A stretch of DNA of 20,551 bases. Source: a virus. Location: the IMG/VR virus record IMGVR_UViG_3300025411_000108, positions 1 through 20,551 of that record. One strand, 5' to 3'. A program made the position numbers and the translations under genes. Under the pieces are notes generated by a model, which saw only the letters and a list, made by a program, of their open reading frames with translations, ran no database searches and was not told where the DNA came from. Shown here piece by piece: positions 13,107 to 17,434 of the stretch (its first letter is position 1; every line of letters starts with the position of its first letter).

Positions 13107-13832
13107 TTAACGCAGAACTTCTTGGCAAGCCAACACAAAGTCAGTAGTCAAAGTGTCAGTAGCTGTAGGAGTAATTTGGAACACTGGAGCAATCAAAGCA
13201 TTGGTCAAAGTAGTACCAGAAGAACCAATAGTAGGTGCAGAGATACGAGCAACAGGACCAGTGCCAGAAGTAGTGTTACCAGAGAACACAATCATGTCAG
13301 TGCCATCGTAGTAGAAAGCAACTTCAAAAAAAGTATTAGCAGCAGCAGTAGCAACACCAGTTACCAAAGTAGTGGCAGTACCGTTAACAGTAGACACCAA
13401 ATTGATGGAAGTAGAAGAAGCAGATTTAGCAAACCACAATCCATCGTTAGTAGATGAACCAGCTTGCAAACCAACGTAGAAAGACACGCTACCAGCAACA
13501 GCAGAAGCTTTAATGCGAGTAGTAAACCAAGAACGATTACCAGCGGTGAACTGGAAGAATTGACCGTTCTTGTAAGCAGAGCTAGCAGTAGTAGTACCAC
13601 CAGGAGTCAAGACAGCCAAGCCACCAACACCAGCAGTCAAAGCAAAAGTAGAGCTAGTACCAGTGACAGTGTAGTCAGTACCAATCAAGGTATTAAAGTC
13701 ATTGGTGTAGGTAGAGCTACCCAAAGCTTGAGTGCTACCAGTGTGAAAAGGATCGGGGAAGGGGAATGAGTACAGAGGCTCGTTAACGTATGCAGTAGAA
13801 AGACCTGCATAGAGGCGGGTAGGATTAGACAT
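13107..13832 (-). CDS. Virion protein with lectin-like (concanavalin/laminin-G type) beta domain
   Basis: I start at ATG 13832 (MSNPTRLYAG) because AAAGGAAC lies 7 bp upstream; a longer frame to 13862 would run through the terminator. The 241-residue protein has an N-terminal arm with a Pro/Phe patch (YSFPFPDPF) and then a long beta-rich region. The pattern QFFQFTAGNRSWFTTRIKAS, then SFYVGLQAGSSTNDGLWF and FFEVAFYYDGTDMIVF looks like a concanavalin-like jelly roll used for carbohydrate or surface binding in many virion proteins. It is the first gene after the second terminator downstream of the capsid gene. It may be a capsid fibre or decoration protein. Domain call by pattern only. Confidence 0.75.
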   Translation of the reverse strand: MSNPTRLYAGLSTAYVNEPLYSFPFPDPFHTGSTQALGSSTYTNDFNTLIGTDYTVTGTSSTFALTAGVGGLAVLTPGGTTTASSAYKNGQFFQFTAGNRSWFTTRIKASAVAGSVSFYVGLQAGSSTNDGLWFAKSASSTSINLVSTVNGTATTLVTGVATAAANTFFEVAFYYDGTDMIVFSGNTTSGTGPVARISAPTIGSSGTTLTNALIAPVFQITPTATDTLTTDFVLACQEVLR

Positions 13833-13852
13833 GATAAGTTCCTTTGACGTTG

Positions 13853-13880
13853 TATAAAACAACGCCCAATTAAGGGCGTC
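13853..13880 (-). terminator. Rho-independent terminator after the lysine-rich microgene
   Basis: On the minus strand ACGCCC pairs with GGGCGT around a TTAATT loop (stem arms 13879-13874 and 13867-13862), followed by TGTTTTAT. It lies between the stop at 13901 and the next start at 13832. The loop sequence is the same as in the terminator upstream of the microgene. Confidence 0.8.
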
Positions 13881-13900
13881 ATTGGAAGACTAGATTCTAC

Positions 13901-14035
13901 TTACATTTTCTTTTTAGTCATAGTCTTTTTTGCAGTCATCTTTTTGGCTGCAGTCATCTTTTTCTTTTGTTCACCTTCAGCTTTAACTTTAGGTTCAGGC
14001 TTTTGGCCCATTTCTTTGCGCTTTTCGTAACCCAT
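13901..14035 (-). CDS. 44-residue lysine-rich basic protein between two terminators
   Basis: An ATG at 14035 with GGAG 7 bp upstream opens a 44-codon frame ending in TAA at 13901. The product begins MGYEKRKEMGQKPEPKVKAE. Its C-terminal half is built of short repeats of the type KKMTAA-KKMTA-KKTMT-KKKM; 15 of 44 residues are Lys and there are six Met. There is no hydrophobic segment. Such a basic, repetitive peptide might bind DNA or RNA, or coat the acidic inner capsid surface, but no family is recognised. It sits directly downstream of the major capsid gene with a hairpin terminator on each side, so its dose is probably set by terminator read-through or its own unseen promoter. Gene finders with a length cut-off would miss it. 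Confidence 0.8.
   Translation of the reverse strand: MGYEKRKEMGQKPEPKVKAEGEQKKKMTAAKKMTAKKTMTKKKM
13932..13963 (-). repeat. 18-bp-period direct repeat inside the lysine-rich microgene
   Basis: The 14-mer GCAGTCATCTTTTT (plus strand) occurs at 13932-13945 and again at 13950-13963, a period of 18 bp or six codons. It encodes the KKMTA repeats, and a degenerate third unit lies at lower coordinates. This suggests the tail of the protein grew by in-frame duplication. Confidence 0.75.
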
Positions 14036-14052
14036 GATAAATCTCCAATTAG

Positions 14053-14080
14053 ATAAAAGAAACCCCCCAATTAAGGGGGG
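14053..14080 (-). terminator. Rho-independent terminator after the major capsid gene
   Basis: On the minus strand six C, a TTAATT loop and six G form a perfect GC-only stem (14080-14063), followed by TTTCTTTTAT. It begins 20 bp after the capsid stop. It should limit transcription from the head genes into the downstream genes, with partial read-through expected because later genes lack an obvious promoter. Confidence 0.88.
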
Positions 14081-14083
14081 TAG

Positions 14084-14099: not shown

Positions 14100-15020
14100 T
14101 TAGGGACCGTTAGAACCCCACACAGCACGTGGATCAGACCAGCCAAAGCTGTAACGTTCGTAACCCTTAGCTTTAACGTTCAGGGTGTCGAAGTCATTGT
14201 CTTGATCAAACATGATGGCGTGACGTTCGTAGTACTTCATACCAGTGCCACCAGGGATGGTGTTACGGATAAACCAAGCGTGAGGCGAGGTGAAGTAGTG
14301 GTTCACTTTAAAGCCACCTGGGAGGTAGTTGCCAGACTTAATGACGTTGATGTCATTGTTGGCATTACCAGTTTGGTAGCTAGAGTGCAGAATGCGTTGA
14401 GCATTGAACACTTCTTGACGAGCGATGTGCAAGTCTTTAGGTTGAATAGCAACCAACAGACCACGGTCGTTTTGCAGACCCATGATAGCGATCACTGCAT
14501 CTTCCAAAGCTGCTTCAGACAAGTCAACGTCAACGGTAGGCTTGTTAGCAAAAGTACCGCCAGTGGTATTGGGGTGAGCAGTGGAGCACAAAGCAACACC
14601 GTCGCCACCAGTATAAGTACCATTGAAAGCACGGTTGTAAACGTTAGCAGCAACGTTTTCTTTCGTTTGACGGAAAGACATAGCCAAAGCTGCAGCACGT
14701 TTCTTGGACACTTGTTCGTACAAGTTGTCGTCCATTTCTTCCTTGGTCACGATATAACCCATTGCGTAAGCAACGTGTGTATAACGAGTAATGAAGCCTT
14801 GGATTTCCGAATCGTACTGAACGCCAGCGCCTTGTTCCTTAACGGGAACCAGACCAAAGCCAGTCAGTTGAACGTCTTCTTCGTAGTTTTGAGTAGAAGT
14901 GTCTTTGTCAAACAAGTTGACATACTCTTCAGGATGCTCATTATAGGTTTGACCCCACCAAGCTTTGACACCAGGCCAAAGAGCTTTTGGGTGCGAACCC
15001 GTAGTAATTACACCAGCCAT
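14100..15020 (-). CDS. Major capsid protein
   Basis: The 306-residue protein starts at ATG 15020 with a strong AAGGAG upstream and is followed by the strongest terminator in the window, both consistent with very high expression. It opens MAGVITTGSHPKALWPGVKA, followed by an E-loop-like region. The segment GYIVTKEEMDDNLYEQVSKK leads into the long spine-type helix (AALAMSFRQTKENVAANVYN). LCSTAHPNTTGGTFAN, a motif I know from major head proteins of the Mu gpT-like group, comes next. The C-terminal part (GGTGMKYYERHAIMFDQDND then ERYSFGWSDPRAVWG) is likewise typical. This fits the HK97 capsid fold, with monomers forming the icosahedral shell. It is shorter than the P22 coat (430 residues), so the head module is not P22-like in sequence even though the tail is. 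Confidence 0.88.
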   Translation of the reverse strand: MAGVITTGSHPKALWPGVKAWWGQTYNEHPEEYVNLFDKDTSTQNYEEDVQLTGFGLVPVKEQGAGVQYDSEIQGFITRYTHVAYAMGYIVTKEEMDDNLYEQVSKKRAAALAMSFRQTKENVAANVYNRAFNGTYTGGDGVALCSTAHPNTTGGTFANKPTVDVDLSEAALEDAVIAIMGLQNDRGLLVAIQPKDLHIARQEVFNAQRILHSSYQTGNANNDINVIKSGNYLPGGFKVNHYFTSPHAWFIRNTIPGGTGMKYYERHAIMFDQDNDFDTLNVKAKGYERYSFGWSDPRAVWGSNGP

Positions 15021-17086: not shown

Positions 17087-17434
17087 TTATGCTTTAGCCA
17101 AATACGGATCAACCAAATCAACGTCAGAATCCAAAGTTCCTGTAACGTCTTTATCGTTGATCATTCGATACTGTTTGCCATCTTTACCAAGGTAAAGCAA
17201 ACCAGCATACTTAGCAAAAATAATCTTATCTCCAACCTTGCACCAAGGTGTAGGTTCATCTGAATAGCATTGATCACCAATGGCTACAACGATGCCTGTA
17301 GTGTTACCCATTTGTTCTCGGGCTTCAGTTGTCTCTGTAGTTAGGATAATCCCACCAGCAGAAACCTTTTTGACTTCTTGTGGTTTAACAAGAACTCGCC
17401 ACCCAACAGGGTTAATTCCAGACTCATTGCTCAT
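17087..17434 (-). CDS. groES: GroES-type co-chaperonin (Cpn10 family)
   Basis: The 115-residue protein matches GroES in order and length. WRVLVKPQEVKKVSAGGIIL holds the first beta strand followed by the mobile loop, whose GG-I-I-L motif (residues 27-31) is the part that inserts into GroEL. Next come TTGIVVAIGD (the family's G-x-V-x-A-x-G strand), then CKVGDKIIFAKYAG (equivalent to VGDxVxFxxYxG), and a C-terminal strand. Like T4 gp31, it should cap the host GroEL and help fold a phage protein, possibly capsid protein. It lies between the portal and scaffold genes and overlaps the preceding gene by 11 bp, so it is made together with head proteins. The ribosome site (AAGG at long spacing) is modest. 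No GroEL partner gene is present in the window. Confidence 0.9.
   Translation of the reverse strand: MSNESGINPVGWRVLVKPQEVKKVSAGGIILTTETTEAREQMGNTTGIVVAIGDQCYSDEPTPWCKVGDKIIFAKYAGLLYLGKDGKQYRMINDKDVTGTLDSDVDLVDPYLAKA

Follow-up and report, generated by a model that had tools for sequence, protein, structure and literature searches.

We found that the 44-codon open reading frame (ORF) at 13901-14035 on the minus strand of a 20551-base tailed-phage fragment, the whole of which was analysed here and is referred to as the window, is a genuine protein-coding gene under strong purifying selection, as judged by sequence comparison with its relatives. This micro-gene is best explained as a component of the capsid module in a single clade of tailed phages from fresh water, and within this clade, at capsid identities of at least 74%, it was never found missing. 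Its product belongs to a new, strongly conserved family of phage micro-proteins that annotation pipelines have missed.

Genomic setting and anatomy of the micro-gene

The late genes of the window lie on the minus strand in the order terminase, portal, GroES, capsid protein and then tail genes. The gene at 14100-15020 (minus strand) encodes a major capsid protein of the HK97 fold, as indicated by its matches to phrog_371 and Pfam Phage_capsid_4 and by Foldseek similarity to HK97-type capsids. A phage GroES co-chaperonin gene (17087-17434, minus strand) stands between the portal and capsid genes; of the more distant relatives examined, all but L090 keep it too. On the other side of the micro-gene, the ORF list and the comparison with relatives placed a gene for a 241-aa protein (13107-13832, minus strand) at the position that the cement gene takes in more distant relatives. 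This next gene has no Pfam or PHROGs family, and its product gave a poor model when folded from one sequence. Among phages with nearly identical capsid proteins it varies widely (e.g. 34% against 96%), as would be expected of a gene that is often exchanged. The single result of a scan of bacterial contigs with the capsid protein was a contig of a Rhodocyclaceae MAG, whose 60% capsid match is too distant to name a host.

Direct reading of the window showed that the micro-gene starts with ATG, comprises 44 codons and ends with TAA, encoding MGYEKRKEMGQKPEPKVKAEGEQKKKMTAAKKMTAKKTMTKKKM, a long form of the type I peptides described below. As the original prediction had stated, the ATG is preceded at a suitable spacing by GGAG (14043-14046, minus strand; 7 nt from the ATG) and one third of the residues are lysine (15/44, 34%). 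A Shine-Dalgarno match was likewise present before the ORF of every listed relative. Alignments and pN/pS values delimited a conserved core of codons 1-16 (13988-14035, minus strand) with the consensus MxYExxKxKGKRPxP, followed by a tail of lysine, methionine and alanine (13904-13987, minus strand) that varies in length and is missing from relatives of 19-29 aa. The tail contains an in-frame direct repeat (13931-13963, minus strand), of which the unit AAAAAGATGACTGCA occurs in exact copies at 13949-13963 and 13931-13945. The in-frame 18-bp repeat claimed earlier is therefore correct in frame and period, but the exact copy measures 15 bp; an automated repeat search of the window did not list it.

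Conservation and selection

The window contains 121 mechanical ORFs of at least 40 aa, so that ORF length alone means nothing and comparison has to decide. Relatives were fetched from IMG/VR, annotated phages and bacterial genomes with the capsid protein as the query, and the regions downstream of their capsid genes were inspected. A small ORF with a Shine-Dalgarno sequence occupied the slot after the capsid gene in 130/130 distinct relatives whose capsid proteins were ≥74% identical (type I in 101, type II in 29), a count that is partly circular, as the motif was learned in part from the same loci, and in none of 51 more distant capsid relatives (capsid identity below 74%). When all IMG/VR contigs were scanned in three runs with DNA patterns derived from the motifs, an approach independent of the capsid gene, 89 stretches were obtained. 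All of them occupy the slot that follows this capsid gene, apart from L255 and L275, where the contig or the fetched stretch had no capsid match.

Purifying selection was further indicated by pN/pS values in disjoint sister pairs of 0.18 for long type I (p = 8e-39), 0.20 for short type I (p = 6e-17) and 0.20 for type II (p = 3e-13). Within type I, codons 1-17 gave 0.17 and the remainder 0.23. Moreover, the identical 19-aa peptide MSYPIEEKKGKRPPVKKGK is encoded by ten different DNA sequences, and a frameshift was seen in just a single copy (L270, type II; an additional A within an A run). The original prediction of a real but overlooked gene, for which it had proposed comparing small ORFs at the same place in related phages, is thus borne out: the ORF was retained throughout, synonymous and nonsynonymous changes occur at very unequal rates, and no frameshift was seen beyond that single copy. 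A chance ORF, which the shortness of the gene and the abundance of mechanical ORFs might suggest, is refuted by conservation, selection and synteny and has practically no probability left.

Searches of Pfam, PHROGs, NCBIfam and the PDB with the peptide returned nothing above the cut-off, which agrees with the earlier statement that no family was known for it. The tblastn search of the peptide against phage records also gave no match, because BLAST masks low-complexity sequence. Neither the capsid protein nor the core peptide found a relative in sequence searches of the PDB, and a search of 13 related records for phrog_20453, which type II had hit at E 0.064, was negative. A literature search retrieved no description of the gene. 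In MW202796, which is the nearest deposited genome, the micro-gene is present as an unannotated copy of 22 codons (L082 4002-4070); the deposited 30-aa UOF82044.1 of MW202796.1 (L082 4006-4098) is a wrong-frame GTG ORF overlapping this copy.

Two types of peptide occupy the slot

Across the close relatives, the slot proteins are small and basic, with 19 to 68 residues. Alignments showed that type I peptides share the conserved MxYExxKxKGKRPxP start but differ in the tail, which is nearly absent in the short forms (total length 19-29 aa) and reaches 40 residues of KKM/AAKK repeats in the long forms (40-58 aa). The net charge is +1 to +8 in the short forms and +9 to +14 in the long forms, of which 26-35% of the residues are lysine. 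Type II peptides, which occupy the slot in about a fifth of the clade, have 42-68 aa, a C-terminal SG(V/F)KKKR(M/L)xxVxSIKxP and a net charge of +5 to +15. A common family of types I and II was not supported by profile comparison (hhalign E 0.07 over 7 columns). The presence of type II in the same slot suggests that the role was kept and the sequence was replaced or diverged past recognition.

In nine regions a gene of 110-200 aa, endonuclease VII/HNH-like by eye, is inserted between the capsid gene and the micro-gene, and the micro-gene is retained. Inserted genes of this appearance, placed right behind the capsid gene and ahead of the micro-gene, were observed in L133, L135, L141, L157, L170 and L171 (111-122 aa), and longer ones of the same appearance in L063, L155, L160 and L164 (184-197 aa). 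Fusion of the motif into a larger protein was not found in the loci fetched by that stage; two motif matches that were not micro-genes proved to be one type II protein and one chance match.

Expression signals differ between the types

In the window, the spacer between the capsid gene and the micro-gene holds a terminator-like hairpin with a U-rich tail (14054-14081, minus strand). A hairpin search found such a structure under strict criteria in 42/45 distinct spacers of long type I, none of which had a sigma-70 promoter (11-12 of 12 positions matched, 17-bp spacer). By the same measures, type II spacers had the promoter in 17/19 distinct cases and the strict hairpin in 0/19, and short type I spacers had the promoter in 8/43 and the hairpin in 11/43 distinct cases, where shuffled sequences would be expected to give about 0.7 promoter matches. 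A perfect or near-perfect TTGACA-17-TATAAT within the late cluster, in the spacer after the capsid gene and often with an extended -10 TG, was observed in L082, L094, L117, L124, L142, L151, L153, L154, L166, L169 and others. Because of the hairpin between the two genes, high expression in the window's phage cannot be concluded from adjacency to the capsid gene alone. The suggestion that the peptide could be abundant owing to its position beside the most highly expressed gene is thus not supported.

A putative role in the capsid module

Peptide distances among the relatives correlated with capsid distances when the next gene was taken into account (partial rho 0.55, 0/300 permutations), and their partial correlation with next-gene distances given the capsid was -0.02, with the capsid gene and the next gene about equally close to the micro-gene. 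By these distances, the peptide has diverged in step with the capsid protein and not with the next gene. The distance of the spacer between the micro-gene and the next gene, which holds the RNA junction described below, correlates with both sides, and the change of partners is therefore placed at or beyond this spacer. The tracking of the capsid could, at least partly, reflect linkage alone if most recombination occurs farther downstream.

Given the universal retention of the micro-gene and a divergence that follows the capsid, a role in the capsid module is our best guess: we tentatively propose, at somewhat less than even confidence, that the product is an accessory peptide of head assembly that binds a head protein. 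The persistence of the micro-gene behind an inserted gene in nine copies was also counted in favour of this role. The peptide would be mostly disordered; its N-terminal motif would attach it to the capsid protein or to a different head protein, and the lysine-rich tail, where present, may contact DNA or acidic surfaces in the head interior. An AlphaFold2 model was built from the natural in-frame capsid gene and ORF, the intervening TAA being read through as a modelling device. The capsid part was HK97-type (Foldseek E about 1e-11), and the peptide region had a pLDDT of about 31-52, which is low confidence. It is a rather doubtful further step that a peptide of 19-58 residues, with a single motif of ~15 residues doing the work, co-assembles with the HK97-fold capsid throughout the clade, and that an unrelated basic peptide can take its place in the slot; if true, few capsid accessory proteins encoded by a separate gene would be as small.

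The main rival, because of the sigma-70 promoters, is a host-directed peptide that would bind a host factor (RNA polymerase, nucleoid, ribosome or nuclease) during infection and merely lie beside the capsid gene. The putative promoter in type II also fits a peptide of this kind made early, and a separate promoter, very small size and strong conservation are reminiscent of host-takeover peptides. However, host-takeover genes usually lie in early regions and are patchy, whereas the micro-gene is retained in one slot in all 130 relatives, its divergence tracks the capsid, and the long type found in the window lacks such a promoter in 45/45 distinct slots. We thus consider a host-directed role unlikely, at about a one-in-four level of belief.

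The original prediction had proposed an internal head peptide that condenses DNA, a reading to which the lysine content of long type I and the positive charge of both long type I and type II lend some support, and internal head proteins do exist in T4 (PMC9958956). As a shared function, DNA condensation is nevertheless unlikely on these sequences, because the basic tail is optional: relatives of 19-29 aa without a tail, whose net charge falls to +1, are under equal selection, so that a strongly basic composition is not conserved among the relatives. In addition, the conserved part of the peptide is the N-terminal motif, and the capsid gene is set apart from the ORF by the terminator-like hairpin. 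Overall, we regard this reading as improbable, more so than a host-directed role.

Comparison with known systems

In phage T4, the internal proteins IPI-III, gp67, gp68 and Alt are basic, and the genes for gp67, gp68 and IPI-III are located near the capsid gene. The head accessory proteins of T4, which include IPI-III, gp67, gp68 and Alt, are small, and some are dispensable (PMC9958956). The prohead core and internal proteins gp67, gp68 and IPI-III are small accessory head proteins, as proposed for the micro-gene peptide, but they are much larger than this peptide. Cement or decoration proteins of more distant relatives (e.g. DSL-LC04 and L085) are encoded at the same position, directly after the capsid gene, but have about 140-160 aa, and in the micro-gene clade the gene at the cement position follows the micro-gene. 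Morons are small genes of phages that bring a promoter and a terminator with them; type II copies are likewise set off by a sigma-70 promoter, and the slot is absent in the outgroup. Morons are patchy, however, whereas the micro-gene is present in every one of the 130 relatives.

Like the catalogued families of small phage genes, the micro-gene is a conserved ORF of <50 codons missed by annotation; unlike them, it has no match in PHROGs, Pfam or NCBIfam. A gene that can be as short as 19 codons, that is never lost and was missed by annotation indicates that much conserved coding sequence of phages is invisible, even beside their best-studied gene. Should the peptide prove to be a capsid component, it would represent capsid binding by a peptide in minimal form and offer a means to stabilise capsids or to load them.

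A conserved RNA three-way junction precedes the next gene

A conserved RNA three-way junction was predicted 5' of the next gene (13831-13889, minus strand) by a strict structure test, RNAalifold and a covariance model. In the strict test, a three-way junction without unpaired junction bases was formed in 67/99 distinct relatives vs 1/99 in shuffles. RNAalifold independently recovered the junction, with covariation in one arm and the next gene's Shine-Dalgarno sequence paired with an upstream UCC. In the window, the UUCC of the junction (13884-13887) can pair with the GGAA of this Shine-Dalgarno sequence (13840-13845), and thus the modelled junction can hide the ribosome-binding site of the next gene. 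The covariance model matched once per genome, at this place, besides a mirror match on the other strand, and had no sense-strand match elsewhere in the window; Rfam had no match in the window. A terminator had been predicted just after the stop codon of the micro-gene: a hairpin does follow the stop, but it is one arm of this junction.

A leader peptide acting in cis, whose translation would open the junction and couple translation of the next gene to it, might be suggested by a conserved structure, just past the stop codon, that can hide the Shine-Dalgarno sequence of the next gene. However, the amino-acid sequence of the peptide is conserved and the distance between the stop codon and the junction is not fixed (about 10 to 39 nt). 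Alternatively, the basic peptide could bind the adjacent junction and control the next gene, as a short arginine/lysine-rich peptide adjoins a conserved RNA structure and the distance of the junction region correlates with that of the peptide (0.59). Against such a regulator, the RNA model gives only one sense-strand match per genome. Against both proposals, junction-like structures are present directly after the capsid gene in two loci without the micro-gene, as a weaker match in L241 and as a strict junction in L242, and each proposal is in our view very unlikely. Because these loci have junctions and no micro-gene, there is reason to attribute the junction to the next gene or to the border between capsid and decoration genes, not to the micro-gene. 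Homologous junction sites are located, e.g., at 3055-3119 of L146 and 5134-5198 of L048.
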